This document shows positions 4,172-48,277 of a DNA stretch of 64,000 nt, piece by piece. Both the position numbers and the translations under genes were made by a program. Source of the DNA: Onthophagus taurus (Eukaryota > Arthropoda > Insecta > Coleoptera > Scarabaeidae). Position 1 is the stretch's first letter; each line of letters starts with the position of its first letter. The notes beneath the pieces were generated by a model. That model saw nothing but the letters and a program-made list of their open reading frames with translations, did not search any database and was not told where the DNA came from. The stretch covers positions 6,200,001 through 6,264,000 of the forward strand of contig NC_091976.1 in assembly GCF_036711975.1 (NCBI RefSeq), read 5' to 3'.

Positions 4172-4493
4172 TTCACACACAATTTTTTCTATTTCACCGA
4201 AAACGCACTACAGTCACATACATGAAACAACGCTTTAAAAATGATGTAATGATCATGCAACTGCGAACTGCGAGTAAAGATTTTAGAACAATTTAAGTAA
4301 AGTACCGAAAAATGTTTATCACTATCTGAACCATGTGGTGTGTGAAGTACCGAAGTGCATTACAGAGATATATTGAATGCGATTTTTAGTGTTTCTGCTA
4401 TTTAATATTAGATGTTATTTTTTTTATGTAATTTTAGATAGCGATACTCAGGATCACTAAGAAAAGTCATTTTTAATTGATTTTTATATTGTC
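4172..4493. other. Spacer between hAT relic and BEL element
   Basis: No gene. It separates the hAT start codon from the 5'-truncated BEL pol frame. I looked here for a BEL 5' LTR (TGTTC...GAACA) and did not find one. Confidence 0.5.
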
Positions 4494-7400: not shown

Positions 7401-8527
7401 AAGCATCCAATCATCCTTCCAAAAGATTCGCCAATTACGATTCTTCTGATCGACAAACATCATCGAGCTACGTTGCATGGAGGAACTCAACTAACTTTAT
7501 CTTCAATCCGACGCCATTTCTGGATCGTTGGAGGGCGAGTACCTGTCCGTTCGTTCATTCATCGATGTATGATTTGTGCGAAACAACGAGCAGTCATCAG
7601 CCAGCAGTTGATGGGCCAACTTCCGCCTTCAAGAGTCATATCATCCCGCCCGTTTCTACACACCGGTGTTGATTACGCCGGACCTTTTCATTTGAAGCAT
7701 CTTCGAGGACGTGGTAGTAAGACGTATAAAGGTTATCTTATTCTGTTTGTTTGTTTAGCCACTTCAGCCGTCCATTTAGAAGTGGCCACAGATTATTCAA
7801 CTTCGGGATTTCTTGCTGCGTACAAGCGATTTTCCGGAAGAAGAGGTATCAGTGAATGCCTCTACAGCGACTGTGGCACGAATCTTGTTGGAGCTGACCG
7901 TGAGCTGCGTTCCATGTTTTCTGCAGCGTCCAAAGAATGGAAAGAAAAGGCTAGTCTCTTGAGCTGCGACGGCACTCGATGGAAGTTCAATCCTCCCGGA
8001 GCACCACATTTCGGTGGAAAGTGGGAGGCCGGAGTAAAATCCGTTAAAGGCCATCTTCGAAAAATTGTCGGATCGAAGAATTCAACACCGTTTTGATTCA
8101 AATTGAGGCCGTGCTAAATTCAAGACCTCTATGTTCAATATCTGACGATCCGAACAATTTTGATGTTCTGACTCCGGCTCACTTTCTCATCGGTAACGCT
8201 CTCACCGTTGTTCCTCCTTGTAGACTCTCTCGATGGCAGCTTCTTCGTCGTATGGTCGAAGATTTCTGGAAGATTTGGGAAAAGTTTTACTTACAATCCA
8301 TGCAGAACGCTACGAAATGGTTCAATCAACAAAATCTTCCTCAAATTGGACAGCTTGTATTCATTCGAGATGAAAGATTACCTCCGGCGAAATGGTCTCT
8401 AGCAAGAATTCTTCAAATTCATTCCGGTGCCGATGGCCACGCTCGCGTCGCAACGCTCAAAACCGCAAATTCAACGCTTGTTCGTCCGTTCGCTAAGTTA
8501 AGCATTTTGCCATATTGTACAAATTAG
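4494..8527 (+). pseudogene. BEL/Pao pol polyprotein (protease, RT, RNase H, integrase, DUF5641)
   Basis: A 1,200-residue open frame (4494-8096) continues in another frame at 8093-8527. Domains in order: retropepsin-like protease with DQGSE near residue 96; reverse transcriptase with YVDD near residue 505; RNase H start GFADAS near 681; H2C2 zinc finger of the integrase near 988-1025 (C..C of CMICAKQ); integrase core with GVDYAGP near 1058, DCGTN near 1125 and GAPHFGGKWE near 1169. The second frame holds IQIEAVLNSRP and the DUF5641-like C-terminus. The break near 8070 looks like a short deletion that removed the usual linker and shifted the frame. The first 50-60 residues are probably not native because gag is gone. 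Apart from that single break, the frame is strikingly open for an element lacking its 5' end. Confidence 0.88.
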
Positions 8528-14773: not shown

Positions 14774-16517
14774 TTAGTAGTTCTGTAAAGTATGATACAT
14801 CTCAAAACATTTTGGAAGATGTAGTGGAACTAGACACGTTTTACATTGCCAAGTTGTTTCACTTCTTATATTATGTTTCACGCATACATAGCATCTCTTT
14901 GCAGGATGTTGCTTTTTATCCGTCGCAGGTATATGTTCGGGAAAATGTGCCCAATTTTTTGCTTGTAACCTAGTAGGGCATTCACCGTGCGACGGTCTTC
15001 CGCGAGACGGATAGTTCGGAAGATTCAAGTTACAGAGCATATCTTCTGCAATATTCAATCGAAAATTCACGATTGATTGCTTTTGTGAAGTAGGCAACTT
15101 CGAATATAAGACAAAAGCATTATAAATACCTATATCGAACATATAAAAGAACATTTTTTTGTATCCTTTTACACACTTTCGCATGAAAGGGAAACATGCA
15201 AGACATTGGTCTTCCCTGTCGACACCTCCCATTTCACGATTGTAGTCCACAACACAGGTCGGTTTCAGCACGCGTTCTTCTTCGCCTCCCTTCTTTCTTC
15301 TTATTTTTCTCGTATCAACCATATCTGCATTTGAGTGTTTCGTGCTTATTATATACACATCCTTCTTGTCATGCCAGCGTAAGGACAGAATACCTCGACA
15401 AGATAGTGTTCTTGCTTCTCCCTTTTTTAGCTTATACGATGCCAGCTTCTTTGGCATATTTTTCCGATTTTTTCTCACCGTTCCAACAACATTTGTATTT
15501 TTTTCATGCAAAATTTTGAATAAATTAGGAGACGAATACCAATTATCCAAGAACAAGGTATATCCTTTCCCTAAAAGGGGTTCGGCTAGTTGCATGACTA
15601 CACTTTCCGATACAGATTCATTACTTCCTGGACTTTTGTCTTGTCCTGTATAAATTTTAAATTGATAACAATACCCAGAATTAGATTCGCACAATTTATA
15701 AAATTTAATTCCGAATCTCGCTCGTTTGGATGCTATGAATTGTTTATAATTTACCCGCCCTCTGAATTTCATTAGAGATTCATCTATGACGATATTTTCT
15801 TCCGGAATGTATAACTGTTGAAATCTGGTATTCAAGTATTCCACTACAGATCGAACCTTTCGTATTCTGTCTTCTTTAGAAACCGTCTCATTATTCACAA
15901 AATGAAGATAGTGCGATATAGCCAAAAAACGTTTACGAGGCATAATTTTCGAAAATATGGGTGTTTCTATGATTTTTCGCTTTGACCAATACATATCTAT
16001 TTTTAGATTTTTTTACTTGTGACATTATAATGCATAATGCAAAATACGCTCTAACTTCATCGTTTGTTAGTGGCTACCAATCCTTGCTCATTTTCGTTTT
16101 TTCTTCCGTTTTCATTTGTGCTGCATATCTATTCGTTTCTGTGACTATCATTTCAAAAAAGTCATCACATAAAACTTGTTTGAAAACACACAGAGGTGTT
16201 GCATTTGTAGCCAATCTTCGTAGAACAGAGCAATTGATGTTGGGAGTTTCAGTAAATTGTTTTATATTGACAATATTTTCTTTTTCCTTCCAATTCCATT
16301 CATCCTCTGGTACATCTGATTCGTCACTGCTTAAGATAGGTCGCGCTCGTTTACGCACATTTTGTCGAATAGAACTAGCTTCACTTGAATTTGAAGCTTC
16401 ACTTGAATACTCAACAGTATAATCACTTTGATGACCATTTTCAACCTCACTATTATCACTAGAGTATCCTAATAGACTTTCATCGTCACTTTCATAAAAT
16501 ACATCCGACTGATACAT
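14774..16517 (-). pseudogene. piggyBac transposase of the inner element
   Basis: The frame at 16517-16074 gives the acidic, Ser-rich N-terminus (MYQSDVFYESDDESLLGYSS). An in-frame TAG near 16071 and a one-base shift in an A-run near 16010 separate it from the 406-residue main frame 15994-14774. The DDE_Tnp_1_7 catalytic aspartates are visible: NIVIDESLMKFRGR, LFLDNWYSS and NREMGGVDREDQ. The C-terminus has the Cys-rich RING-like motif (RCYVCV...CKTC...C). Total length of about 580 residues is normal for piggyBac. Only two lesions disable it, so the copy is young. Confidence 0.9.
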
Positions 16518-17494: not shown

Positions 17495-20400
17495 TTAACG
17501 GCAGTTGTTACAGGTGGGTTTTGAACACTGCAAGCAGATCGGCTGACCGCACATTGTGCACCCGTAATGGGTTCTACGTCGTTTTTGCTTGAAACACATG
17601 TAACAATTCTTCAAAATCTCAAACTTTAGGATTTCAGTGCTTTGTTGATTTGATTCAGTAGGCTTATCTTTCCCCAAAATACGTCCTATGAGACTCTTGA
17701 GCTCGTGAGAAAGTTGTGGTATTTCATATCGTCGCTCTAGGTGTGGAGTTACTAATCGTCTTCCTAGGTCTTTCATGAATTCCATACGTTTCGATTTGTC
17801 ATAATTAGATATTATGAAAGAATTGGCAGCAGCTATATCTAAAATCCTGTAGAATATGACTAGTGGCCATCGTCTAGACCTTCTACTACAAGTGTATTTT
17901 GCACACTTTTCGTGTAGAGAATCCACACCCCCTTTTGTTGCGTTATAGAATGAAATTATTTCGGGGATCCCTTTAGTAGAGTCAAAGCTCTCTTCATGGT
18001 GCATTGATGAGATCATTGTGACAGTCTTCTTCTTTTTTGGAACGTAAGATAGCAGAGTAAGTTGTTTTGTAAAACCGTACATAGTTGAATGAACTTGTCG
18101 TTTTTTATCAAGAAATTCGGGTGGTATTTCTCTTTTATTTTTTTTAGGGTTCCAACGTAAGTCAAGCCTCTTTTTCTCAGTTCTATGCAGACTTCAATTG
18201 AGGAAAAGTAGTTATCTGCAGTGATATTTCGATTGGTTGTCATTATCGGTTTTGCCAAACGCAAGACACACTGCGTTGGTACTAATAACTTCCTTTCTTC
18301 ATGTGTTAGCCCGTTTCCGTCACTGTTCTTTCCTGTATATAGGTACGCATTGTATAAATAGCTAGTAGCACCATCAGTCAGACATTTTATTTCCAAGCCA
18401 TACTTACACGGCTTGTTAGGCATGTATTTCTTCCATCTACATCTTCCTCTGAAAGATACTAGCATTTCGTCAATTGTTGTAGTTTCCCCAATTTTATAGT
18501 ACTTTTGACAATTTCCTATAAATTCGCGAAATATGTCCGAAATAGCAGCAGCGACGTCAGTCCGTTTTCTTTGGTCTCTAGTAGACGCATCATCAAACCT
18601 CAGACATAGGAGAATCATTGCAAACCGCTCTTTAGACATAACTCCTCTAAAAATATCTTTCCCGTTTCCGTCCGTCGCAAACAATGCATTTAGGTCTTCA
18701 TCATTTGATTTGAACACTGCACTAAACATCAGCAGACCAATGAACGCATCAAACTCCAAAGGATCAATGTCTTTCAGTTCAGGTTTATTCTGGCGTTTAT
18801 ATTTTTCTCTTGTCACTTCCAATCTTTGATTAGTAAAGTTTATAACTTTAGTTTTGATACTCTCAGATATCAGCAATCCAAATAATTGAGACGAAGTGCT
18901 GTCAGGTGGAATGTCAGTTGCGGTCAATGGAACTACAATGTTGTGCGCAGGAGTTCGAGTGCTTCTTGATGGCCCTTCTGCGGACCACTTCATGCATCGT
19001 CTTTTACCATAGAAATATTTTTGGCGACGTGATTTGTCATTACAAGTCTCAGGTTCACTTACCTGGCTGATAGTTTCTCTTTCTAGAGGGTCAGCTCGAC
19101 TTACTAAACGTGACAATGGAATGTCATCATCAGAGGAGTCGGAGATATGAGAATCTGCTGGTGTTGGTAAACTAATCTCTTCATTTTCTTCATCTTCTTC
19201 TGATGAAGAATTTCCGCGATCTGATTGTATGCAATCTTCTTCACCTGCCGATGATTCCTCTGATTCTTTGTTACGTTCAAAATTAAAAAAAAAAATTGTT
19301 TTGTTTTGTTTGATTATTAAATTTATTTTTATTTTTAGCGTTATTTACATTTTGTTATTTATTTTTCTGTTACAGCAGCATACTTCTGGTATTCCCATTT
19401 TTTTTTCCTCTTTCTTTGTCCATTTAACAGTTCCCTAATTCCTTGAATTTCGTCCTTTGTTGTTGAGAGGGTGTTGATTCTTAAGTTTTGCGCAGGTGTA
19501 ATTTTTTTGAATCCAACTTGTATAAAAGTGTTTTCCAAAGTCTTCGAGCTCTCTCTTTTTTAAAAACCAGATGGTGAATACTAATCACGAGTGATTTTTG
19601 GAAATTGTCGTTGAATCGCCATTTTTGGAATAATTTTGTGATTTTCCTTTATCCATAATTTTGGGATTCATCACTCGCGATTGTCATTGAGAAAAGAGAT
19701 TTTATTTTCTCATATTTTTCGGTATATCCGGATCTCAAAGTATTTTCCACGTTTTCTTCTGGTTAAAACCTCGAACACCGGAGGTAAGTTCTTCCACTTT
19801 TCTTTTAATTCACACGCCCTTTCCCCTTTCAACTAATCAACCTTTCAACAATCATTCAACTACCTTTCACCTATTCATTCATTCCAACTCCTAAAATCCT
19901 AAGTTTAAAAAAAAAAAAAAAAAAACTAAAGCTAAAACTATCCTAAAATCTAATTCTCCAAGCATCTTTTTTTATTCTTCTTAATTCTCTATCCAGGTTT
20001 TATTGTGAGGAGCAATTTTGGGCAATTCCTTCTGGGGAATAATTTAATTCCATTACCTCTTCGATTATTCGGAGACAACTTTGGTCTGAGAGGGTCTTCT
20101 ATTTTCGTTCTTACCTGGAAACAACTTTATCTATAACCTGTTAAGAAGATTTATTCAATTGAGATACCTTTCCTAGACCTTACCAGAAGTGCTGCTGTGG
20201 AACTCCACACCATCAAATCAGTTAAGAAGTGTCAACTATCTTAAAGGTCAGATAAATATTTTATTTTGTGAGAGAACCAGACACCCAGTAGGTTCTCACT
20301 CAGAAGTTTTCTTGTAGATCAGTAATTCATTTTGTTGAAAACAACTCTCTAGTTAACTCACTATTTGACTCACTACCTTTTGATTCATTTTTTTTTAATT

Positions 20401-21106: not shown

Positions 21107-21742
21107 TTTATCTACAAGCGAAAAAATAAAAGAAATTCGAAAAAGTTACACTAACACTGACAATACGAATGTCGTACGTCAGATGATCAAATTCACCTGT
21201 ATAAAAGTGCGTCATACGTTCGTCTTCTCTGCAGCACGCGTGTTACTGACGGCTAGGAAACTACTAGAAACGACAAGCACGAATTCCCGCACAAAAACAA
21301 GTTATGAACGAATAACGGTTTTCGCAACGAATGTCATTCGTACGTCAGTGATTAAGGGTTAAACATTTAGAGGACCGGGACCACCACTTAAGTGGTGGTC
21401 TATGTTATCAGTACTTTGTATATGATAAATATACTGGTGTGAAGTTATCCATAAATCCCAGCAATAAACTTAAAACATTAATAATTCCGTAACCAATACG
21501 ATTTGGGTAACCAAATTTCACACACAGGTCACTCTTACCCTCAAGAACAGCTAACCACCCCCATTTGGTAAAAAAAAATTTTTTCAACCCTCACCCCCGA
21601 AAAAGGGATGTTTTCGCCCTGATGGGCACCTTCGAATTAAACGAAATTCTACCACATAATAGAACACACTTCTAAGTATTTTTATCAATTTTCAAAACAC
21701 CGTAAGCCCTAACGGTTTTCGAGAAAAAAAATCAGTATTATA

Positions 21743-24036
21743 AACCGCGGATGGGACTTTAGGGGTGAATTTGACCCCGTTGGGCACCTTCAAAATTGAT
21801 GAAATTTTAGGATGATTTAGAGGATGCCTTTAGCAATTGAAATCAACCATCCAAACACCGTAAGGTATAACGGTTTCCGAGAAAAAAAATGTGTTATTAG
21901 ACACTATAGGTACACAGCGCGGCGCGGACTTTGGGGGTGAATTTGACCCCGTTGGGCACCTCCAAAATTGACGAAATTTTAGGATGATTTAGAGGATGCC
22001 TTTAGCGATTGAAATCAACCATCCAAACACCGTAATGTATTACGGTTTCCGAGAAAAAAAATGTGTTATTAGACACTATAGGTATACAGCGCGGCGCGGA
22101 CTTTGGGGGTGAATTTGACCCCGTTGGGCACCTCCAAAGTTGACGAAATTTTAGGATGATTTAGAGGATGCCTTTAGCAATTGATATCAACCATCCAAAC
22201 ACCGTAATGTATTACGGTTTCCGAGAAAAAAAATGTGTTATTAGACACTATAGGTATACAGCGCGGCGCGGACTTTGGGGGTGAATTTGACCCCGTTGGG
22301 CACCTCCAAAATTGACGAAATTTTAGGATGATTTAGAGGATGCCTTTAGCGATTGAAATCAACCATCCAAACACCGTAATGTATTACGGTTTCCGAGAAA
22401 AAAAATGTGTTATTAGACACTATAGGTATACAGCGCGGCGCGGACTTTGGGGGTGAATTTGACCCCGTTGGGCACCTCCAAAGTTGACGAAATTTTAGGA
22501 TGATTTAGAGGATGCCTTTAGCAATTGATATCAACCATCCAAACACCGTAATGTATTACGGTTTCCGAGAAAAAAAATGTGTTATTAGACACTATAGGTA
22601 TACAGCGCGGCGCGGACTTTGGGGGTGAATTTGACCCCGTTGGGCACCTCCAAAATTGACGAAATTTTAGGATGATTTAGAGGATGCCTTTAGCAATTGA
22701 TATCAACCATCCAAACACCGTAATGTATTACGGTTTCCGAGAAAAAAAATGTGTTATTAGACACTATAGGTATACAGCGCGGCGCGGACTTTGGGGGTGA
22801 ATTTGACCCCGTTGGGCACCTCCAAAGTTGACGAAATTTTAGGATGATTTAGAGGATGCCTTTAGCGATTGAAATCAACCATCCAAACACCGTAATGTAT
22901 TACGGTTTCCGAGAAAAAAAATGTGTTATTAGACACTATAGGTATACAGCGCGGCGCGGACTTTGGGGGTGAATTTGACCCCGTTGGGCACCTCCAAAAT
23001 TGACGAAATTTTAGGATGATTTAGAGGATGCCTTTAGCGATTGAAATCAACCATCCAAACACCGTAATGTATTACGGTTTCCGAGAAAAAAAATGTGTTA
23101 TTAGACACTATAGGTATACAGCGCGGCGCGGACTTTGGGGGTGAATTTGACCCCGTTGGGCACCTCCAAAGTTGACGAAATTTTAGGATGATTTAGAGGA
23201 TGCCTTTAGCAATTGATATCAACCATCCAAACACCGTAATGTATTACGGTTTCCGAGAAAAAAAATGTGTTATTAGACACTATAGGTATACAGCGCGGCG
23301 CGGACTTTGGGGGTGAATTTGACCCCGTTGGGCACCTCCAAAGTTGACGAAATTTTAGGATGATTTAGAGGATGCCTTTAGCGATTGAAATCAACCATCC
23401 AAACACCGTAATGTATTACGGTTTCCGAGAAAAAAAATGTGTTATTAGACACTATAGGTATACAGCGCGGCGCGGACTTTGGGGGTGAATTTGACCCCGT
23501 TGGGCACCTCCAAAATTGACGAAATTTTAGGATGATTTAGAGGATGCCTTTAGCGATTGAAATCAACCATCCAAACACCGTAATGTATTACGGTTTCCGA
23601 GAAAAAAAATGTGTTATTAGACACTATAGGTATACAGCGCGGCGCGGACTTTGGGGGTGAATTTGACCCCGTTGGGCACCTCCAAAGTTGACGAAATTTT
23701 AGGATGATTTAGAGGATGCCTTTAGCAATTGATATCAACCATCCAAACACCGTAATGTATTACGGTTTCCGAGAAAAAAAATGTGTTATTAGACACTATA
23801 GGTATACAGCGCGGCGCGGACTTTGGGGGTGAATTTGACCCCGTTGGGCACCTCCAAAGTTGACGAAATTTTAGGATGATTTAGAGGATGCCTTTAGCGA
23901 TTGAAATCAACCATCCAAACACCGTAATGTATAACGGTTTCCGAGAAAAAAAATGTGATATTAGACACTATAGGTATACAGCGCGGCGCGGACTTTGGGG
24001 GTGAATTTGACCCCGTTGGGCACCTCCAAAGTTGGT
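21743..24036 (+). repeat. 172-bp tandem repeat array, left arm
   Basis: The landmark gcgcggcgcggactttgg occurs 13 times, from 21917 to 23981, at exactly 172-bp spacing, preceded by one more diverged unit. Two variants alternate irregularly: 'gcgattgaaatcaacc' against 'gcaattgatatcaacc', and 'ccaaaattgacg' against 'ccaaagttgacg'. The 'gatatcaacc' variant is confined to this arm. There is no ORF in the units and no spacer between them. Confidence 0.95.
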
Positions 24037-24340
24037 TTAATATTATTTAATATTAAGTTTAATAGATTATGAAAACTGCGAAACTCTTAATATTTCATGG
24101 AAAAAATAAATTTTGTTAAGAAAGGCATTTTGTAGTTTTATGGGCTTTTAGTCGTTACTGGCAAAGGGTAAGAACTCCGCCACGTGCAGTTACAAAAGGC
24201 GCAGGTATTAAGGAAAAAATATGTCCATATTTTTTGCATTATAAGTGCATTCCGGGAAAATAGTTGCCGACTTATTCGGTGTTGTTTTAGAGCGTCATAC
24301 ACATTTTTTAGATTTTGCCCGAAAGGTGAGGAGTAAACTT

Positions 24341-24366
24341 ATAATATATAAAGATTCCTCAGCTAT
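24341..24366 (+). promoter_or_regulatory. TATA box and initiator of the cargo gene
   Basis: 'ataatatataaag' at 24341-24353 is a good TATA element about 70 bp before the start codon, with 'ctcagct' at 24358-24364 as a possible initiator. Upstream, CACGTG (about 24181) and TTCCGGGAA (about 24251) match E-box and STAT-type motifs. They are seen in the sequence, but their function is inferred. Confidence 0.5.
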
Positions 24367-24419
24367 TGCAGAGATCAGCTGTTCTAGTTATCTCTTGTTA
24401 AAACCAGTGACCAGTGAAG

Positions 24420-25174
24420 ATGTCGACGAAATTACTGTTTTTGGGCGATAGTAATTTTTGCCGAATGCTACGTACTAGAACTAACTACAAAGTATTTGTT
24501 CTAACAGATGTGAAATTAATTCCTACTAATGGTATATATTTTAGGACGACAACCAAAACAGTCAAGCAACGGAAAATATTTCCTCGACTTAGCAGTAGGC
24601 GGTCAAACAATACTAAAACTTTTGCGGCGCGCAAAGTGTATTCCAAAAACATGTTACCCTTGGTTTTGTGGAGATATTGTTGAACGTCATATCGTTATAA
24701 TGATAAGAACTAAAGATATACTCCATAAAACATCACCATCCCAACTGAAGTCCCAATATTCTCACCTCTTCCGCTTCCTTCTTTCCTTAAATCCTAAAGG
24801 AATACAAATTTGCACAATTCCTCCCTGCAAAAACTTCGAGTCTGTGAACGTAAGATATTATAACTTCTCTGTCATGCTATAAATAAATACTCTCCATGCC
24901 TTTATAGGAAATCAATCATTACATTCGACGGTTTTGTGCTGAAAAGCAAATCAATTGTACCGACATTGAAGCAATTGTTAACAGAACCATGATGGAAGGG
25001 TAACAAAACGTAAAAATGTTTCTTTTCTTATGTATTTAATACAAATTTCTACACAGGGATGGCATTTACTTAAATGAACAAGGGTTGGAAACGGTCTGGA
25101 ACGCGGTAGCAAGTAATTATAATCATATTCTCAATCCATTACACAATTTAATTATAAGTAAAACAGACCATTAA
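24420..25174 (+). CDS. SGNH/GDSL-hydrolase-like protein, four exons, cargo of foldback element
   Basis: Exons 24420-24471, 24545-24849, 24908-24999 and 25057-25174 join to an uninterrupted 188-residue frame. Introns are 73, 58 and 57 bp, all GT-AG (donors gtactag, gtaaga, gtaaca; acceptors ttttag, ttatag, cacag). The protein has an SGNH layout: strand plus nucleophile motif LLFLGDSNF with Ser11; a conserved Gly block AVGGQTILKLL (Gly36-Gly37); a hydrophobic strand IVIMIRTKDILHK, where the family usually has G-x-N-D but Arg72 and Lys74 stand; and a C-terminal DGIYLNEQGLE block, where the usual D-x-x-H has Tyr154 in place of His. Ser11 and Asp151 are therefore kept, and the oxyanion-hole Asn and catalytic His are lost. 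No signal peptide or membrane segment is seen. It could be a non-hydrolytic ligand binder, a decaying esterase, or a divergent family. Splicing is predicted by me from sequence only. Confidence 0.72.
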
Positions 25175-25177
25175 TAT

Positions 25178-25183
25178 AATAAA
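25178..25183 (+). promoter_or_regulatory. Polyadenylation signal of the cargo gene
   Basis: AATAAA starts four bases after the TAA stop codon, followed by a T-rich stretch. With the TATA box it frames a complete, compact transcription unit. Confidence 0.6.
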
Positions 25184-25225
25184 TTTCTTTCTCTATCAAA
25201 AGTTTTTTTTCTATCAAAAGTCCGC

Positions 25226-28200
25226 CCTCCAAATCATCCTAAAATTTCATCAATTTTGGAGATGCCCAACGGGGTCAAATTCACCCCCAAAGTCCGCGCC
25301 GCGCTGTGTACCTATAGTGTCTAATAACACATTTTTTTTCTCGGAAACCGTAATACATTACGGTGTTTGGATGGTTGATTTCAATCGCTAAAGGCATCCT
25401 CTAAATCATCCTAAAATTTCGTCAATTTTGGAGGTGCCCAACGGGGTCAAATTCACCCCCAAAGTCCGCGCCGCGCTGTATACCTATAGTGTCTAATATC
25501 ACATTTTTTTTCTCGGAAACCGTTATACATTACGGTGTTTGGATGGTTGATTTCAATCGCTAAAGGCATCCTCTAAATCATTCTAAAATTTCGTCAATTT
25601 TGGAGGTGCCCAACGGGGTCAAATTCACCCCCAAAGTCCGCGCCGCGATCTGTACCTATAGTGTCTAATAACACATTTTTTTTCTCGGAAACCGTAATAC
25701 ATTACGGTGTTTGGATGGTTGATTTCAATCGCTAAAGGCATCCTCTAAATCATCCTAAAATTTCGTCAATTTTGGAGGTGCCCAACGGGGTCAAATTCAC
25801 CCCCAAAGTCCGCGCCGCGCTGTATACCTATAGTGTCTAATATCACATTTTTTTTCTCGGAAACCGTTATACATTACGGTGTTTGGATGGTTGATTTCAA
25901 TCGCTAAAGGCATCCTCTAAATCATTCTAAAATTTCGTCAATTTTGGAGGTGCCCAACGGGGTCAAATTCACCCCCAAAGTCCGCGCCGCGATCTGTACC
26001 TATAGTGTCTAATAACACATTTTTTTTCTCGGAAACCGTAATACATTACGGTGTTTGGATGGTTGATTTCAATCGCTAAAGGCATCCTCTAAATCATCCT
26101 AAAATTTCGTCAATTTTGGAGGTGCCCAACGGGGTCAAATTCACCCCCAAAGTCCGCGCCGCGCTGTATACCTATAGTGTCTAATATCACATTTTTTTTC
26201 TCGGAAACCGTTATACATTACGGTGTTTGGATGGTTGATTTCAATCGCTAAAGGCATCCTCTAAATCATTCTAAAATTTCGTCAATTTTGGAGGTGCCCA
26301 ACGGGGTCAAATTCACCCCCAAAGTCCGCGCCGCGATCTGTACCTATAGTGTCTAATAACACATTTTTTTTCTCGGAAACCGTAATACATTACGGTGTTT
26401 GGATGGTTGATTTCAATCGCTAAAGGCATCCTCTAAATCATCCTAAAATTTCGTCAATTTTGGAGGTGCCCAACGGGGTCAAATTCACCCCCAAAGTCCG
26501 CGCCGCGATCTGTACCTATAGTGTCTAATAACACATTTTTTTTCTCGGAAACCGTAATACATTACGGTGTTTGGATGGTTGATTTCAATCGCTAAAGGCA
26601 TCCTCTAAATCATCCTAAAATTTCGTCAATTTTGGAGGTGCCCAACGGGGTCAAATTCACCCCCAAAGTCCGCGCCGCGATCTGTACCTATAGTGTCTAA
26701 TAACACATTTTTTTTCTCGGAAACCGTAATACATTACGGTGTTTGGATGGTTGATTTCAATCGCTAAAGGCATCCTCTAAATCATCCTAAAATTTCGTCA
26801 ATTTTGGAGGTGCCCAACGGGGTCAAATTCACCCCCAAAGTCCGCGCCGCGCTGTATACCTATAGTGTCTAATATCACATTTTTTTTCTCGGAAACCGTT
26901 ATACATTACGGTGTTTGGATGGTTGATTTCAATCGCTAAAGGCATCCTCTAAATCATTCTAAAATTTCGTCAATTTTGGAGGTGCCCAACGGGGTCAAAT
27001 TCACCCCCAAAGTCTGCGCCGCGCTGTATACCTATAGTGTCTAATAACACATTTTTTTTCTCGGAAACCGTAATATATTACGGTGTTTGGATGGTTGATT
27101 TCAATCGCTAAAGGCATCCTCTAAATCATCCTAAAATTTCGTCAATTTTGGAGGTGCCCAACGGGGTCAAATTCACCCCCAAAGTCCGCGCCGCGATCTG
27201 TACCTATAGTGTCTAATAACACATTTTTTTTCTCGGAAACCGTAATACATTACGGTGTTTGGATGGTTGATTTCAATCGCTAAAGGCATCCTCTAAATCA
27301 TCCTAAAATTTCGTCAATTTTGGAGGTGCCCAACGGGGTCAAATTCACCCCCAAAGTCCGCGCCGCGCTGTATACCTATAGTGTCTAATAACACATTTTT
27401 TTTCTCGGAAACCGTAATACATTACGGTGTTTGGATGGTTGATTTCAATCGCTAAAGGCATCCTCTAAATCATCCTAAAATTTCGTCAATTTTGGAGGTG
27501 CCCAACGGGGTCAAATTCACCCCCAAAGTCCGCGCCGCGATCTGTACCTATAGTGTCTAATAACACATTTTTTTTCTCGGAAACCGTAATACATTACGGT
27601 GTTTGGATGGTTGATTTCAATCGCTAAAGGCATCCTCTAAATCATCCTAAAATTTCGTCAATTTTGGAGGTGCCCAACGGGGTCAAATTCACCCCCAAAG
27701 TCCGCGCCGCGATCTGTACCTATAGTGTCTAATAACACATTTTTTTTCTCGGAAACCGTAATACATTACGGTGTTTGGATGGTTGATTTCAATCGCTAAA
27801 GGCATCCTCTAAATCATCCTAAAATTTCGTCAATTTTGGAGGTGCCCAACGGGGTCAAATTCACCCCCAAAGTCCGCGCCGCGATCTGTACCTATAGTGT
27901 CTAATAACACATTTTTTTTCTCGGAAACCGTAATACATTACGGTGTTTGGATGGTTGATTTCAATCGCTAAAGGCATCCTCTAAATCATCCTAAAATTTC
28001 GTCAATTTTGGAGGTGCCCAACGGGGTCAAATTCACCCCCAAAGTCCGCGCCGCGATCTGTACCTATAGTGTCTAATAACACATTTTTTTTCTCGGAAAC
28101 CGTAATACATTACGGTGTTTGGATGGTTGATTTCAATCGCTAAAGGCATCCTCTAAATCATCCTAAAATTTCGTCAATTTTGGAGGTGCCCAACGGGGTC

Positions 28201-31200
28201 AAATTCACCCCCAAAGTCCGCGCCGCGCTGTATACCTATAGTGTCTAATATCACATTTTTTTTCTCGGAAACCGTTATACATTACGGTGTTTGGATGGTT
28301 GATTTCAATCGCTAAAGGCATCCTCTAAATCATTCTAAAATTTCGTCAATTTTGGAGGTGCCCAACGGGGTCAAATTCACCCCCAAAGTCTGCGCCGCGC
28401 TGTATACCTATAGTGTCTAATAACACATTTTTTTTCTCGGAAACCGTAATATATTACGGTGTTTGGATGGTTGATTTCAATCGCTAAAGGCATCCTCTAA
28501 ATCATCCTAAAATTTCGTCAATTTTGGAGGTGCCCAACGGGGTCAAATTCACCCCCAAAGTCCGCGCCGCGATCTGTACCTATAGTGTCTAATAACACAT
28601 TTTTTTTCTCGGAAACCGTAATACATTACGGTGTTTGGATGGTTGATTTCAATCGCTAAAGGCATCCTCTAAATCATCCTAAAATTTCGTCAATTTTGGA
28701 GGTGCCCAACGGGGTCAAATTCACCCCCAAAGTCCGCGCCGCGCTGTATACCTATAGTGTCTAATAACACATTTTTTTTCTCGGAAACCGTAATACATTA
28801 CGGTGTTTGGATGGTTGATTTCAATCGCTAAAGGCATCCTCTAAATCATCCTAAAATTTCGTCAATTTTGGAGGTGCCCAACGGGGTCAAATTCACCCCC
28901 AAAGTCCGCGCCGCGATCTGTACCTATAGTGTCTAATAACACATTTTTTTTCTCGGAAACCGTAATACATTACGGTGTTTGGATGGTTGATTTCAATCGC
29001 TAAAGGCATCCTCTAAATCATCCTAAAATTTCGTCAATTTTGGAGGTGCCCAACGGGGTCAAATTCACCCCCAAAGTCCGCGCCGCGATCTGTACCTATA
29101 GTGTCTAATAACACATTTTTTTTCTCGGAAACCGTAATACATTACGGTGTTTGGATGGTTGATTTCAATCGCTAAAGGCATCCTCTAAATCATCCTAAAA
29201 TTTCGTCAATTTTGGAGGTGCCCAACGGGGTCAAATTCACCCCCAAAGTCCGCGCCGCGCTGTATACCTATAGTGTCTAATATCACATTTTTTTTCTCGG
29301 AAACCGTTATACATTACGGTGTTTGGATGGTTGATTTCAATCGCTAAAGGCATCCTCTAAATCATTCTAAAATTTCGTCAATTTTGGAGGTGCCCAACGG
29401 GGTCAAATTCACCCCCAAAGTCTGCGCCGCGCTGTATACCTATAGTGTCTAATAACACATTTTTTTTCTCGGAAACCGTAATATATTACGGTGTTTGGAT
29501 GGTTGATTTCAATCGCTAAAGGCATCCTCTAAATCATCCTAAAATTTCGTCAATTTTGGAGGTGCCCAACGGGGTCAAATTCACCCCCAAAGTCCGCGCC
29601 GCGATCTGTACCTATAGTGTCTAATAACACATTTTTTTTCTCGGAAACCGTAATACATTACGGTGTTTGGATGGTTGATTTCAATCGCTAAAGGCATCCT
29701 CTAAATCATCCTAAAATTTCGTCAATTTTGGAGGTGCCCAACGGGGTCAAATTCACCCCCAAAGTCCGCGCCGCGCTGTATACCTATAGTGTCTAATAAC
29801 ACATTTTTTTTCTCGGAAACCGTAATACATTACGGTGTTTGGATGGTTGATTTCAATCGCTAAAGGCATCCTCTAAATCATCCTAAAATTTCGTCAATTT
29901 TGGAGGTGCCCAACGGGGTCAAATTCACCCCCAAAGTCCGCGCCGCGATCTGTACCTATAGTGTCTAATAACACATTTTTTTTCTCGGAAACCGTAATAC
30001 ATTACGGTGTTTGGATGGTTGATTTCAATCGCTAAAGGCATCCTCTAAATCATCCTAAAATTTCGTCAATTTTGGAGGTGCCCAACGGGGTCAAATTCAC
30101 CCCCAAAGTCCGCGCCGCGATCTGTACCTATAGTGTCTAATAACACATTTTTTTTCTCGGAAACCGTAATACATTACGGTGTTTGGATGGTTGATTTCAA
30201 TCGCTAAAGGCATCCTCTAAATCATCCTAAAATTTCGTCAATTTTGGAGGTGCCCAACGGGGTCAAATTCACCCCCAAAGTCCGCGCCGCGCTGTATACC
30301 TATAGTGTCTAATAACACATTTTTTTTCTCGGAAACCGTAATACATTACGGTGTTTGGATGGTTGATTTCAATCGCTAAAGGCATCCTCTAAATCATCCT
30401 AAAATTTCGTCAATTTTGGAGGTGCCCAACGGGGTCAAATTCACCCCCAAAGTCCGCGCCGCGATCTGTACCTATAGTGTCTAATAACACATTTTTTTTC
30501 TCGGAAACCGTAATACATTACGGTGTTTGGATGGTTGATTTCAATCGCTAAAGGCATCCTCTAAATCATCCTAAAATTTCGTCAATTTTGGAGGTGCCCA
30601 ACGGGGTCAAATTCACCCCCAAAGTCCGCGCCGCGATCTGTACCTATAGTGTCTAATAACACATTTTTTTTCTCGGAAACCGTAATACATTACGGTGTTT
30701 GGATGGTTGATTTCAATCGCTAAAGGCATCCTCTAAATCATCCTAAAATTTCGTCAATTTTGGAGGTGCCCAACGGGGTCAAATTCACCCCCAAAGTCCG
30801 CGCCGCGCTGTATACCTATAGTGTCTAATATCACATTTTTTTTCTCGGAAACCGTTATACATTACGGTGTTTGGATGGTTGATTTCAATCGCTAAAGGCA
30901 TCCTCTAAATCATTCTAAAATTTCGTCAATTTTGGAGGTGCCCAACGGGGTCAAATTCACCCCCAAAGTCTGCGCCGCGCTGTATACCTATAGTGTCTAA
31001 TAACACATTTTTTTTCTCGGAAACCGTAATATATTACGGTGTTTGGATGGTTGATTTCAATCGCTAAAGGCATCCTCTAAATCATCCTAAAATTTCGTCA
31101 ATTTTGGAGGTGCCCAACGGGGTCAAATTCACCCCCAAAGTCCGCGCCGCGATCTGTACCTATAGTGTCTAATAACACATTTTTTTTCTCGGAAACCGTA

Positions 31201-31480
31201 ATACATTACGGTGTTTGGATGGTTGATTTCAATCGCTAAAGGCATCCTCTAAATCATCCTAAAATTTCGTCAATTTTGGAGGTGCCCAACGGGGTCAAAT
31301 TCACCCCCAAAGTCCGCGCCGCGCTGTGTACCTATAGTGTCTAATAACACATTTTTTTTCTCGGAAACCGTTATACCTTACGGTGTTTGGATGGTTGATT
31401 TCAATTGCTAAAGGCATCCTCTAAATCATCCTAAAATTTCATCAATTTTGAAGGTGCCCAACGGGGTCAAATTCACCCCT
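25226..31480 (-). repeat. 172-bp tandem repeat array, right arm (inverted)
   Basis: The landmark agtccgcgccgcg lies at 25291 and again at 31311, exactly 35 periods of 172 bp later, giving about 36 units in the reverse orientation to the left arm. Variants 'gatctgtacc' / 'gctgtatacc', 'aataacac' / 'aatatcac' and 'agtctgcgcc' recur in blocks. The 'agtctgcgcc' unit appears near 27011, 28387, 29419 and 30967, spacings of 8, 6 and 9 units, which shows segmental amplification of multi-unit blocks. Confidence 0.95.
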
Positions 31481-31865
31481 AAAGTCCCATCCGCGGTTTA
31501 TAATACTGATTTTTTTTCTCGAAAACCGTTAGGGCTTACGGTGTTTTGAAAATTGATAAAAATACTTAGAAGTGTGTTCTATTATGTGGTAGAATTTCGT
31601 TTAATTCGAAGGTGCCCATCAGGGCGAAAACATCCCTTTTTCGGGGGTGAGGGTTGAAAAATTTTTTTTTACCAAATGGGGGTGGTTAGCTGTTCTTGAG
31701 GGTAAGAGTGACCTGTGTGTGAAATTTGGTTACCCAAATCGTATTGGTTACGGAATTATTAATGTTTTAAGTTTATTGCTGGGATTTATGGATAACTTCA
31801 CACCAGTGATAAATATATCATATGAAACAATATGTTACTTAAAATCTCGGCCCGCTAAAGGTTAA

Positions 31866-36312: not shown

Positions 36313-37304
36313 TTAGTATTTGGTAGGGCCTCCATTTCGTTTAATGACTTCAGCTAATCGTTTTGGAAGTGATTCTACTAATCTTTGTGTTGTATCCATA
36401 GATATTTTCTCCCACTCAGTAATCAAAGCTGCCTTTAGATCTTTTTGATTCTGAATACTGTATTTTCTGATGTTCGTCTCCAGTAAACTCCACAAATTTT
36501 CAATAGGATTAATGTCAGGCGATTGTGGAGGGGTTTCAATCCATTTTGGAGTATTATAGAGTAACCACATTTTAGTATTCCAGGCTGTGTGCTTCGGATC
36601 GTTGTCTTGGGTAAATACATAATCGTTATTTAGCCCCATTTTTTCAGCACTGCTTCGAAGATTTGTTTTTAAAATATTGATGTATTGCTTGTGATCCATG
36701 ATTCCATCAATGAAATGCATATTTCCAACACCTTTCGAACTCATGCAGCCCCATACTAGTACAGAACCTCCTCCATGTTTAAATGTAGGTCTCAAGTTTT
36801 TTTCTTCCAGTTCTTTATTCTTTTGCCGCCATATCATTCGCCGCCCATCGGATCCATAAATGTTAAACTTACTCTCATCCGTAAATATTACTTTGTTCCA
36901 GAATTTCTTTTTTGTTTATTAATTTTGCTTATAAATGGTTTCTTTCTGGCAACTCGACCATGATAACCAGCTGCATACAGAACGTTACGAATGGTATTTA
37001 CGGATATAGATTTTCCAAATTCACTTTCAACTTCAATAGCAATTTTTGTTGCACTTTTATTAGGATCTTTTTTAATTTTGTTGACAACAATTCTCTTTTC
37101 TTTACAAGTGAGCTTTTGAGGACGACCAGTTCTGACAGCGTTGTTGAAACAATTATTTGAAGCAAATCTACCAATAATACTTTTTACGGTCGAATACGAC
37201 CTTTTTACACATTTACCAATATCTCGAATAGATTTGCCTTCTTTACGTAGGCTTATAATAATTTTTCTAACTTCTATAGATGTTTTGCACTGTTTTCTAC
37301 CCAT
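36313..37304 (-). pseudogene. Tc1-like DD34E-type transposase, one frame break
   Basis: The first frame (37304-36888) has MGRKQCKTSIEVRKIIISLR and RSYSTVKSIIGRF, a paired-like helix-turn-helix, followed by a GRPQKLT (GRPR-like) AT-hook and a second HTH. The second frame (36837-36313, extendable upstream to FWNKVIFTDESKFN) has catalytic Asp in FTDES, Asp in TQDNDPKHTA, and Glu in SPDINPIENLW. A short deletion near 36905-36915 removed part of the linker and shifted frame. The product would otherwise be about 330 residues, normal for the family. Confidence 0.88.
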
Positions 37305-40128: not shown

Positions 40129-42620
40129 CAGGGTGGTTCAGTTTTTAATCGGGAAACTTTACTAGGACGTAGTACTTGCCAAAATAACACAAGTTTTTTA
40201 TATAAACATAGGGTCGCAACTCTTTTGTTTTCGAGCTATGAGCGATCAAAGTTGAGCTAAAAATTTACATTTTATTATTTATTTCGGCTATAAGTAAACC
40301 GAAGAATTTGAAATTTGGTATGTATTTACTACTGGTTAACATCTTGTTTTCTAGCATACCTTAAGCTTCCCTAGCGCCCTCTAAGGGGATGAAATTCACC
40401 ACCCCCTTGGTTCTTTTTAGAAGAACTTTTTAACGCAATGCAATATTACCATAGAAAAATATGGGTTGTACAGCTCATTCTTTAGTGGTTCTTTTTTGTC
40501 TCTTTAGTTTTTCTCTTAAAATTGATAGTTTTTGCGTAAAAAAATAAAATATGTTACATTGCGCGGCAAAGCGCTACCTACAAATAAAAAACAAAATTTT
40601 AAGTTGGCTATGGAAGATGTAAACTTACCAGGATTTTGGGCTAACACAATAACACAAATTATTTACGATTTCGTCTCTTGACTTGTTTTCTCATTAAAGT
40701 AATAAAAAATTTAATTAAATTTAAGTTAAAATAATCATTCAAAAGATAAGTAACATTTAATAATAAATTAAATAGTATACTAAAAAAATGGAAATTACAA
40801 GAGAAAAATGTTAAAAAACAAACAGAAAACTAATTAAGAATCAAAATGAAACAAATTTATCAAAAAAACTCATTACAAAAATAAACACAATTAATTTAAA
40901 AATTGTTCAAAATGCATGCCATTGTTATCAATGCATTTTTGGCATCTTGTAACAACAGAATTAACTGATTGTTCCTTAAAGTGTTAGCAGCGTCTTTTAT
41001 TTTTTCCAACAGTTCTTCCCGAGTGTTTATTGGAGCGGCGTAAACTAGATTTTTCATATAGCCCCACACAAAAAAATCTAAAACGTTAAGATCAGGAGAC
41101 CTTGGTGGCCAGGCAACGGGACCTCGGTTTGCCTCTTGATAATTGACAGGACCTAGTCGTCCTATCCGTCTATGTCCATAACGTGCGTTACACCATGCAC
41201 GTACGTTAGCGCTGTAATGCGATGGTGCCCCATCCATCTGAAGCCAATGTTGCTCCAGATCACCTAGAGGAACGTCCGATAAACATTCCGCCAAATCGTT
41301 TTGCAAAAAATTTAAAAACATCGTTGCGTTCAGACGAGGTGGCAAAAAATAAGGCCCACAGAGGTTATTATTAATGACACCCATCCACACATTAAAACTA
41401 AACTCTGTTTGGTAGGTTTTTGGACGTATTGCATGGGGATTTTCATGCTCCCAACTATGTAAGTTATGGTAATTTACGACACCCCTTCTTGTAAACGTGG
41501 CTTCATCTGTCCACAAAATCTTCTTACAAAAATTTTGGTCACGTTCAACAGACTGTACAAACCACCTACAGAAAGTTACTCTTTTAGGACCATCTTCAGG
41601 TCTTAAATTTTGTACAGGTTGAAAACGATAGGGTTTCCTGTGGTCCTTCTTCAGAGTTCGTAAAATTGTACTTCTTGAGACTCGTAAATTTTGAGCTTGA
41701 AATAGTCTAGCAGCTATGCGACTGCTTAATGTGCTGTCATTATCAAAAAGGTTTAAAATTGCTCTTTGGTTTCTGTTATTTTGATTATTTCGTACTTGCT
41801 GGGTATTTAAACCATATTGTCGAAAACGTTGATGTGTATTGATAAATACCTGAGGATCAGGACATCTTCTATTAGGAAACCTTCTAGCGTATTCTCTAGA
41901 TGCCGCTTCCGCATTTCCATCACAAAAACCATAAATAAAATGAATGTCTGCGTATTCTTCTGTCGAAAATAATCGTGGCATGATCAATTTTTCCTAGTTT
42001 TTTAAACAATGATCAACAATAAAAAAATAATGATACTTTTACTTAATAACAATCAAGAAATATTTTCAATAATTGTCAACAATTAAGAGGATTTAACGTA
42101 ACTAACAGCTCGTCTCAATACAAACATAAATTGTTTTTTGAAAATCAAAGCCAACTTTTAGAGTAATTTTAGCTAAGCATGGCGGTACATGGCACGACAT
42201 TCCATTTTTTTACACAAAAACTATCAATTTTAGGAAAAAAACTAAAGAGACAAAAAAGTACCATTAAAGAATGAGCTTTATAACCAATATTTTTTTATGT
42301 TAATACTCCATGGCGTTAAAAAGTTCTTCTAAAAAGAACCAAGGGGGTGGTGAATTTCATCCCCTTAGAGGGCGCTAGGGAAGCTTAAGGTATGCTAGAA
42401 AACAAGATGTTAACCAATAGTAAATACATACCAAATTTCAAATTCTTCGGTTTACTTATAGCCGAAATAAATAATAAAATGTAAATTTTTAGCTCAACTT
42501 TGATCGCTCATAGCTCGAAAACAAAAGAGTTGCGACCCTACGTTTATATAAAAAACTTGTGTTATTTTGGCAAGTACTACGTCCTAGTAAAGTTTCCCGA
42601 TTAAAAACTGAACCACCCTG
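40129..42620 (-). mobile_element. Mariner-like element with 420-bp inverted repeats
   Basis: The ends CAGGGTGGTTCAGTTTTTAA are inverted at both sides and flanked by TA (tata). The inverted repeats extend inward to about 40547 on the left and 42204 on the right, with only scattered mismatches. The single ORF (40896-41987) is intact. Complete ends plus an open transposase make this the best candidate in the window for a functional class II element. Confidence 0.9.
40896..41987 (-). CDS. Mariner-like transposase (DUF4817 type), intact
   Basis: This 363-residue frame has no break. The N-terminus (FSTEEYADIHFIYGFCDGNA, then REYARRFPNR) is the DUF4817 helix-turn-helix; a second HTH follows (SSRIAARLFQAQNLRVSRST). 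Catalytic triad: WTDEATF, LQMDGAPSHY and PPRSPDLNVLDFFVWG. There are 46 residues between the second and third Asp, about ten more than in related proteins I know (near 36), owing to a segment around VNYQEANRG. The role is cut-and-paste transposition at TA. The start ATG was chosen because it leads directly into the conserved helix; a second Met two residues later is equally possible. Confidence 0.88.
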   Translation of the reverse strand: MIMPRLFSTEEYADIHFIYGFCDGNAEAASREYARRFPNRRCPDPQVFINTHQRFRQYGLNTQQVRNNQNNRNQRAILNLFDNDSTLSSRIAARLFQAQNLRVSRSTILRTLKKDHRKPYRFQPVQNLRPEDGPKRVTFCRWFVQSVERDQNFCKKILWTDEATFTRRGVVNYHNLHSWEHENPHAIRPKTYQTEFSFNVWMGVINNNLCGPYFLPPRLNATMFLNFLQNDLAECLSDVPLGDLEQHWLQMDGAPSHYSANVRAWCNARYGHRRIGRLGPVNYQEANRGPVAWPPRSPDLNVLDFFVWGYMKNLVYAAPINTREELLEKIKDAANTLRNNQLILLLQDAKNALITMACILNNF

Positions 42621-43000: not shown

Positions 43001-46000
43001 TTATAATTGGATAGCGCTTATCTAAAATGTACCAATCGCCAAATTATAGTTTTGAGCAAATGGTGATTAAAGTTTTATAATGCTGAAAAATAAGTTTGTG
43101 GATGAAACGGATCAGCCTTTACATTTTATAACATGGAATAGATTCCTACAGCATTCCAGTAAGTTTTTCACCGATTTAATTTTTTTTGACTTGATTTTTT
43201 TGACGAGAATGGCGCTTGGTTCTCTTTTGATTAAATAGAATTTTTTACATGGATCTACATACATCGTTTGTATGGCGTTTGGATCTTTATGCGTAATGCA
43301 AAAATATTGCATGGATCTGTTCTCACAATAAATACTACTTGATTTTTTATATTATAATAATAAAAAATGTATAGGAAAGTATTTTAATTTATTAATACAA
43401 TAAATAATAACATAATAATTAACAAATTAATCATTTGTCTCAGGTATAAAATCAATGTTTTGACCAAATGCGTCTACATCGTCTTCAAAATCGGCACCAT
43501 TTATGTTTCTATAAAAATACTTGACATCATTTGGTATCAGAGGCATCAAACTTTTAATGTCAGCCAGCTTTTTATTGGAAATTTCTTTTCCGTTGGGATA
43601 CAATTGAAAAAGTTTTGATGCAAAATAAGGCTCTACACTGATTGGCCTGCCTTTGGTTAGTTTCCTTATGTTAATTTCTTTATAATCTTCATCATCTTTG
43701 TGGCTATACTTCATAAAAATTGAGAAAGGTGTTTCTTTACTAAATTTTATTACCCTAGCTTGAAGCCAATTAACGTGCTCTCTATTACTATCTATTTTTC
43801 GGTTGGTTATAAATTGCTCTATTCTTGAAGTTCCGACGAAGTCATCCTTTGTCATTTCAACCCCAACAAATTTACTCTTTGACGAACAAAGTTCAATGAT
43901 TTTTTTAAACTCATCTAGAGTGTAAACACGTAATTGGTACTTTAGTTTTCTTTCAATCTCTCCAAAGTCCGTATCATTCGGTAAGAAGCTGTGGCCAGGC
44001 ATCAGGTATTTGAAGTAGATAGTTTTAAGTGAAGTGTGCGATTCTAGAACAGCTTTTAAAAGTAATACGATTTTAATATTTCTATTTTGGCCTCCGCACG
44101 AGTCAGACCATAGAATTAAGTTTTCGGTTTCTTGCGCCAAAAATGTATCAACAAACTTTCTAATACAAGATCCGACCTCTTGAGCCCCACGTCCAGCTAT
44201 TCCCTCTTTCCAAATAAAACAATATGGTGTGTTAGTTGAGGCTACATGTATGCCTTCATTGTAAATTGAAAGCTGTCTTTTGTAATAAACAATATTAGTG
44301 GGGAGTTTTGGCAATCCTAAAACTTTTTCTATATCGTATGTTGCTGTCTCAACTTTAACATCTGTTTTAGCTAGCTCCATATCATGTTTCATTGCATCGC
44401 GTGCTTCTTTCGCTATTAACAAGTGTTGTTCGTGTTGCAATTTAGTTTCGTCCAGTTCATCCTGGTTGCAGTTTCTAATTTTTGCGGTATAACTATCACA
44501 TAAATTGCACGTGTCTTTTGCAGGGGCTTTGCGTCTCAAATTGAAATTTTCGTAAAAAATTGTTTTATATGTTGAAAATCCCACTTTGTGATTAGTTTCT
44601 TCTTCTGTATATAAACAATACATTTTATTTAATGTGAGGTCAGTTGCCAAAAACTTTGCCTCCGTTTCGTTTCTTGAATAATGGGATATATACATAGGAA
44701 ATCTGGCAATCTGGTTTATTATCTTATCTTTTGTTTCTTTACTCAACTTATTATATCCTCCGCACTTAAATCCCCTTTCATCCTTAATATTACCGGTTTG
44801 TATTTTTTTCAAAGCGGTGTTTACCCTTTTGGGTGATATTTGTAAAGTTTTAATATACATATCTCTGCAGACTTTTATATTATTGACATGATAAGTTCGA
44901 GTATTTTGTCTTCTGTTACTTTCTTTGTTTCTTTTTCTCTTTATTCCTTGTTGTTTAACTGTTGCTGCTATAAGGGTTGTTTGAGCATTATAGCTCTCCA
45001 GTCCCCAAAATTGCGTAAAAAACTTTTCCCTTGCAGCAAGTGTAACATGTTCATTACATTTCAAAGTGCAATTGCATTGGAAATCTATAAACATTTTTGA
45101 TTCTACTAGCTTGCCTTTAACTGTAAAATGTTTCTTATTTCCATCTTTTAATTTTGCAGGATATTTGGTGTACCTCCCTTTCTTAGGTCTGCCTTTTCGG
45201 TTTGATTTTTCTTCAAGTAACGCCAAATTTCTTTGAGTCTCTGCTAAGTTTTATTTCAAACTGGAATGCGAAATAGAATCCGAATCCTCTGAATCTGAAC
45301 TTGGCTTATATTCACTTCCAGAATCTTCAAAGTCACTAATATGTTTAATATTCTTCTCTCTTTCACTGTTATAAGATACCTCGGTAGGATGAGAACATTC
45401 TTCTTTAGCTTCCTGGACTGACATATTCTGGTTAGTACCATCATATTTTAAATCACAGTTTATTAATGAATTGTCATTATTGTTTATTTTTTTTTTCGAT
45501 TTATTTTTTAAGATTGGCGTTGTAGAAACAGAAATTATGTCGCTGCACGAAGTTTGCTAATAGCTAGAACTGGATATCTAAACAATAAAAAAAAATTCCT
45601 AACCTAAAAACACTAACATTTTGTACAAAAAAAACATTACTTACATAGGGCACGTCTGATCTATTTGTCAGTTTTAATGACAGATTCAAAATTCTAGCAC
45701 TTCTATCACCCATTACAAAAACCTCGTGCTAACTTTAACACAAAACTAACATTCACGACAGCTCACAGCATTCAAGATGACACAATGAAACTCTAACTCA
45801 AAAAGGAACCAAACGCCAGATGTTTAATATTTAAACAGCTTCTGTGACTTGGATCCCTTTAGAAGTAAGTAGAATTCGATAATTCGTGTTGTGTCACTTG
45901 GTACCCTCAATAACAGAGGTCCCTACGAGCAGTTTAGTGTTTCGATCTTTTTAGAGTAACTAAGTCTTTGTTATAAAAGGCGTTTAGTGCATTTATATGA

Positions 46001-48058: not shown

Positions 48059-48277
48059 CCATCACCTCACAATATATCTTTGATCCGGAATAAAATAACT
48101 TGATTATTTCTGCTAATCACATAAACTACATACAAACGACTGCTATCTCGGTATCGTTACCTAACGACCAAACCTAACCTCAAAGTCTTTAGGCAACGAT
48201 GTGGTTAGAAGTTACAAAATACGAATTGTCGTTCATAAACGACAAACGACGTCGTTGAGAGTTACAAAATAGGCCTG

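Follow-up and report, generated by a model that had tools for sequence, protein, structure and literature searches.

The stretch of Onthophagus taurus DNA analysed here (64,000 nucleotides, hereafter the window) contains two long arrays of the same satellite unit, which face each other across a short core. This raises the question of whether such a structure is a mobile element and, if so, how it is moved. An earlier note, made from the letters alone, had described a 10.4-kb element with exact inverted ends, a perfect 9-bp GATAAATAT duplication, unequal arms of 172-bp units and a core of ~1.2 kb, and this description is confirmed in the sequence (Table 1). The element spans 21433-31807 (10,375 bp): the left end, ACTGGTGTGAAGTTATCC, starts at 21433, and its exact reverse complement ends at 31807. 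Besides the two copies of GATAAATAT that bound the element, a third is found in the window at 20251. In the outer 600 bp, a single indel within an A/T run is the sole difference between the two arms, and the longest ungapped inverted match between them covers 2,487 nt at 98%. The core, ~1.19 kb long, lies between ~24035 and ~25225. The arms are indeed made of a 172-bp satellite, as had been proposed, but in each of them the satellite is preceded by an outer domain of ~300 bp, which is itself partly a diverged unit.

Table 1. Features of the element in the window (positions counted from the first base of the window).
Feature	Positions	Strand	Program
Left 9-bp target site duplication, GATAAATAT	21424..21432	.	
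Left terminal domain of the inverted repeat, beginning with ACTGGTGTGAAGTTATCC; inner part a diverged 172-bp unit	21433..21740	+	
Left satellite arm, 172-bp units, ~13.3 copies	21754..24034	+	Tandem Repeats Finder
Core, type A	24040..25220	+	
Decayed relic of a predicted four-exon SGNH/GDSL-hydrolase gene; its counterpart is open in core-B copies	24420..25174	+	
Right satellite arm, inverted 172-bp units, ~36.4 copies, with higher-order duplications	25226..31487	-	Tandem Repeats Finder
Right terminal domain of the inverted repeat, inner border approximate	31500..31807	-	
Right 9-bp target site duplication, GATAAATAT	31808..31816	.	

Relatives of the element were searched for in the genome that contains the window (290.8 Mb). 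A 30-bp end pattern, with up to two mismatches, gives 215 matches genome-wide (103 forward and 112 reverse), and the reversed-pattern control gives none. Exact ends, divided by the preceding base, amount to 165 (59 + 106); from 159 of these, at least 66 inverted pairs within 25 kb are obtained, and 27 ends are left unpaired. The paired-end elements range from 2,756 to 21,484 bp, with a median of ~5.7 kb. Two forms of the core, A and B, can be distinguished. Among the 66 pairs, 34 contain a match to core A, 25 a match to a stretch specific to core B (in two of the 25, short pieces only) and seven neither, these matches being drawn from the best 40 of 122 candidates for A and the best 40 of 46 for B. 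At least 40 places, the window copy included, carry core A at 98-100% identity (best 40 of 122 candidates). In three of the seven pairs with no core match (L015, L025 and L034), direct reading gives a diverged, split or partial core A. Thirty-one stretches were fetched, corresponding to 30 copies (L017 and L018 are the identical locus); with one incomplete copy excluded (L028) and the window copy added, 30 complete elements were available, of which a single one (L032) has no core detectable by blastn. The counts of copies sharing both ends, many of them with the same core, bear out the earlier note on this point: the window element is a mobile DNA element, one among dozens of closely similar genomic copies, and it belongs to a young family, in which core and ends are uniform and the arms very uneven.

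Some copies depart from this general layout. Two outsize pairs, of 21.5 and 20.6 kb (C8:14517474-14538957 and C11:10003588-10024165), possibly contain nested insertions. In L025 (6772-8504), a stretch of ~570 bp, probably also a nested insertion, splits core A at core position 778-779. In L034 (5398-5611), the core directly abuts position 213 of the terminal domain, and this side lacks a satellite arm; the 9-bp duplication is nonetheless perfect. The two terminal domains are unlike each other in the six whole core-B elements and in the core-less L032 (L022, L030, L032, L035-L038), with ~99.7% versus 96.4-96.8% identity to the query. Both are at ~98.7-100% in A elements, as if the ends of A had been made alike.

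The sites of insertion point in the same direction as the copies. Perfect 9-bp duplications flank 27 of the 30 complete elements, no two of them being the same, and their composition is 75% A+T; the other three (L016, L030 and L033) have, as judged by eye, an 8-bp duplication. The expectation that each copy would have its own duplication is thereby upheld. Empty sites were also found. Once the element is removed, the joined flanks of the window copy match dispersed repeats in 41 rows, 24 of which, besides its own, cross the junction, as judged by alignment coordinates and with 20-odd extra subject versus query bases in many of the junction-spanning rows. Because of these 24 rows, it can be considered that the short target repeat exists elsewhere with no element in it, as the earlier note had anticipated; the closest match (C11:8740689-8740769) has 98% identity across query positions 130-210. 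When the flanks of the 29 other copies were joined and compared with the fetched copy stretches, no further junction-spanning match was obtained. Copies, differing duplications and empty sites together show that the locus had rightly been taken for a foldback-like transposon, with its 9-bp duplications and its satellite arms of unequal length.

What the element carries is best seen in core B. This core, of 1,640 bp, allows a gene model of four exons (64, 305, 92 and 118 nt) separated by introns of 57-58 nt, with splicing deduced from GT-AG sites, and would encode a protein of 192 aa. The 192-aa reading is open in six of the six whole core-B copies (the incomplete core of L028 being left aside). 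In Pfam, the predicted protein matches Lipase_GDSL_2 (2.9e-12) and Lipase_GDSL (1.6e-8); a match to OSK stays below the threshold. It contains the motifs GDSN, GTND and DGIH, which fit GDS(N), GxND and DxxH, presumably the motif blocks of SGNH/GDSL hydrolases. A search of PDB by sequence returned four matches, none of them meaningful (best E 0.55, one GDSL protein at E 0.59), and one scan of viral contigs returned nothing related to the hydrolase. Genome-wide, there are 21 matches to PF13472, 20 of which lie inside the 66 pairs and one beside an older relative of the core; just one of the 21 reaches the curated cut-off, because the exons are scored apart. Comparison with elements of the Pack-TIR or Pack-MULE type, which carry captured host genes, gives a mixed picture: a gene-like core is present, but no host parent was found, all 21 PF13472 matches being in or beside the family; a parent gene split into short exons could escape such a search.

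In the window copy, ~480 bp upstream of the gene are missing from core A, and AACTTA is found at both sides of the joint. An insertion in exon 1 and alterations of the motif blocks and of the frame have left a relic that does not display the SGNH/GDSL blocks. These changes are common to the subfamily: using exact marker strings, the exon-1 mark is found in 22 of 22 A cores, the altered second block in 21 of 22 and the altered third block in 17 of 22, the A cores devoid of an altered-block marker matching neither form. An older relative at 84% identity (L040), in which the gene is decayed, has most of the 480-bp stretch. A is therefore read as the result of a deletion, and B is taken as ancestral in layout; the converse possibility, a later insertion of the additional 480 bp into core B, was rejected on the same ground. 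Overall, the core descends from an SGNH/GDSL-hydrolase gene, with an open modelled reading in subfamily B and a decayed one in A. The structured gene that had been noticed in the loop is thus gene-derived, as claimed, but it is a decayed relic in the window copy and is open in sister copies.

It can be asked whether the hydrolase is an integral accessory gene that would aid the spread of the family, A copies being gene-dead followers. The open reading in all whole core-B copies, the presence of the gene region in the more diverged L040 and the location of the PF13472 matches in or beside the family are consistent with such a role, as is the occurrence of SGNH/GDSL genes in other mobile elements, namely a fish Helitron (PMC4021074) and rotifer terminons (PMC6431247), described here, like the other published elements below, from excerpts of the sources. 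However, copies in which the gene is dead fare no worse (34 of the 66 pairs have an A core versus 25 with the B-specific stretch), every one of the 22 A cores examined carries the exon-1 insertion mark, and the six B copies differ too little for selection to be seen. We therefore regard an accessory role as possible but rather unlikely. Since subfamily A, deprived of the gene, still spread, the hydrolase does not appear to be needed in cis. The family, with an open hydrolase in one subfamily and a dead one in another whose spread was no less successful, offers a clean test of the role of the cargo in transposition.

This leaves the question of the enzyme that moves the element. The core-B protein is no transposase, since it matches GDSL and OSK families only in Pfam. 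Mutator-like transposases are very abundant in the genome, with at least 122 matches to PF20700 (best 114 of 565 candidates) and 16 to PF10551. None of these listed matches starts inside the 66 pairs, so that no MULE-type DDE transposase is seen between family ends, although unscored candidates and mismatched or unlisted ends could hide one. In this assembly, the family therefore has the appearance of a non-autonomous one. When single ends were compared with the 16 PF10551 and most of the PF20700 matches, an end at C8:20708607, which lacks an exact partner, was noted 9.2 kb from a PF20700 match; it was set aside as a candidate autonomous partner, PF20700 matches being too many for proximity to count. 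The target duplications, with 27 of 30 at 9 bp and three of 30 at 8 bp, fall within the 8-11 bp range of MULE/Mutator elements. The preferred explanation, to which we would assign a probability of roughly 0.86, is a recently active, non-autonomous, cut-and-paste foldback DNA transposon, on which a Mutator-type transposase would most likely act in trans. The link with Mutator is drawn from the duplication length, the long repetitive ends and the literature, no transposase having been found with family ends.

P-type elements, which make 7-bp duplications, are relevant here. The family could alternatively belong to a superfamily other than Mutator and have evolved foldback arms independently, as did Galileo, a member of the P superfamily. 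Foldback arms do occur in unrelated superfamilies (PMC3169594, PMC3688188), and the listed MULE/Mutator matches lie outside the paired elements. The predominance of 9-bp duplications nevertheless fits the 8-11 bp described for MULEs (PMC6446971), and Rehavkus elements agree in duplication length, one of them, Rehavkus-1_TC, also in unit length and size. A non-Mutator origin is for these reasons judged improbable.

The rest of the window is dense in transposons. A fragment of a Mutator-like transposase (58467-58949; PF20700, 3.8e-35) lies near an ORF with YqaJ/alkaline-exonuclease matches (56627-57451) and is probably the remnant of another transposon; among the 25 longest of the 94 inverted-repeat pairs around it (54-62 kb), none has family-like ends. 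Five ORFs (14774-16012, 18013-19344, 36313-36915, 40896-41993 and 47399-48061) match DDE_Tnp_1_7 (two), DDE_3 (two) and DDE_Tnp_4, which we take to be piggyBac-, mariner- and Harbinger-type, respectively. Two long ORFs (4461-8527 and 50728-53562) resemble, by eye, polyproteins of BEL/Pao-type retroelements, and an open frame of 607 aa (43427-45250) has a DUF7869 match (3.2e-7). No Rfam match reaches the gathering score in the window.

The arms are the most variable part of the family, with 0 to 36.6 units per arm among the 30 copies. The 172-bp unit can be aligned to the terminal domain at positions 185-300, which suggests that the satellite may have grown through duplication of a portion of the end, an origin also put forward for Tetris (PMC4079207). 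Units were excised at an exact anchor, so that those with an altered anchor are merged or lost in the following counts. The form ACCGT(8 bases)ACGGT is found in 525 of 542 units and the exact palindrome ACCGTAATGTATTACGGT in 386 of 542. When the 514 units that measure exactly 172 bp are compared, they differ on average by 2.0% if taken from one arm, by 2.3% if taken from opposite arms of an element and by 3.0% if taken from separate elements; in only 19 of 28 elements is the left arm nearer to its own right arm than to those of others. Barcodes of unit types reveal higher-order duplications. The window element and L019, which lies on another contig, have unit types in common; their right arms contain ~36 and 10.4 units, respectively, and blocks such as ACTLCC, repeated in the right arm of the window copy (36.4 units), are only brief in L019. 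L019 is probably a sister copy of the window element. The family therefore offers good natural material for studying how satellite DNA may be seeded by transposon arms and how arrays grow around an element that moves.

A bolder proposal joins the arms to the cargo: the SGNH hydrolase might be kept as a working accessory gene for spread, acting through membrane or lipid chemistry, as proposed for the GDSL-carrying terminons (PMC6431247), while the arms might serve as docking arrays for the transposase. We hold this to be improbable; if true, it would describe a foldback transposon with a dedicated enzyme, whose satellite arms are long arrays of transposase docking sites. Finally, the reading of the structure as an assembly artefact or plain satellite, in which local rearrangement or assembly error would have brought together two inverted arrays that do not move, as the 98% complementarity of the arms might suggest, can be dismissed: dozens of copies with common ends, arms and core occupy distinct sites between duplications that differ, element-free target-repeat sites exist, and the unit has no blastn match (E 1e-6) in the flanks of 29 stretches, 141,328 bases in total (L017, L018 and L028 being left out).

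Returning to the non-autonomous foldback transposon moved in trans, its observed basis is that copies share their ends and differ in their 9-bp duplications and unit number, that a repeat occupied here is empty elsewhere by alignment coordinates, that the 172-bp unit of the arms resembles a duplicated and diverged part of the terminal domain, and that the core descends from a hydrolase gene. A Mutator-type transposase (MULE or Rehavkus-like), made elsewhere in the genome, would bind the ends and probably also the palindrome (ACCGTAATGTATTACGGT and close forms) present in nearly every unit. It would then excise the element and reinsert it with a 9-bp stagger. Arms would grow or shrink as tandem units undergo unequal exchange, slippage or interrupted gap repair. 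Subfamily A would have arisen from a B-type element by the ~480-bp deletion at a short repeat; the gene would have been lost and the spread would have continued.

The element was initially thought to combine traits in a way matched by no described element. This does not hold, since Rehavkus, Tetris, Tm1 and gene-carrying FB4 cover these traits between them. Drosophila FB elements have short tandem units. As for the insertion of a host gene, some FB4 copies, including Ssk-FB4, carry a nearly whole one between long repetitive ends, with 9-10 bp duplications and with a transposase that is unknown as in the present family; the parent gene is known for Ssk-FB4, whereas none was found here, the comparison being one of descriptions (PMC8277862). 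In Tm1 of Meloidogyne (Mutator/Foldback), duplications of 8-10 bp, most often 9, are found in 45 of 53 elements, and the unequal tandem-repeat ends and mostly non-autonomous copies are also reminiscent of our family; its units are, however, of 13-15 bp, and a Phantom-type transposase element was found in it (PMC3169594). Galileo shares the long repetitive ends, in which the tandem repeats provide additional binding sites for the transposase, but has a P-type transposase with short THAP sites (PMC3688188). Tetris of Drosophila virilis is an apparently non-autonomous foldback element with arm units of ~220 bp that have a stretch in common with the outer domain, variable unit number and 8-9 bp duplications; it is described from three structurally complete copies with no coding capacity, as against at least 66 pairs and a gene-derived core here (PMC4079207). 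Titles and the beginnings of abstracts in the open-access literature name no foldback element with an SGNH gene, and the excerpt of a study on arthropod MULEs adds nothing on foldback arms (PMC13359780).

By description rather than by sequence, the nearest published match is Rehavkus-1_TC of Tribolium, an element of 9.5 kb (10.4 kb here) with the 164-bp satellite TCsat23 (172-bp units here) in its inverted termini (PMC10218199). The Rehavkus group, related to MULEs, has 9-bp duplications and a transposase with a PHD finger (PMC6446971). The window family likewise shows a 9-bp duplication and a satellite next to the terminal repeat; a Rehavkus-type transposase is missing from its 66 pairs as far as PF20700 and PF10551 matches go, and the core-B protein offers only GDSL/OSK ones. 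The arrays of Rehavkus-1_TC are short, mostly of five and eight units, compared with up to ~36 in one arm here, again by description only (PMC10218199). With long inverted tandem-repeat ends around a variable middle, and a unit number that varies between arms and between copies, the design is that of a foldback element. The family is thus a new one of a known kind, in which the arms are long and the hydrolase cargo is the unusual part.
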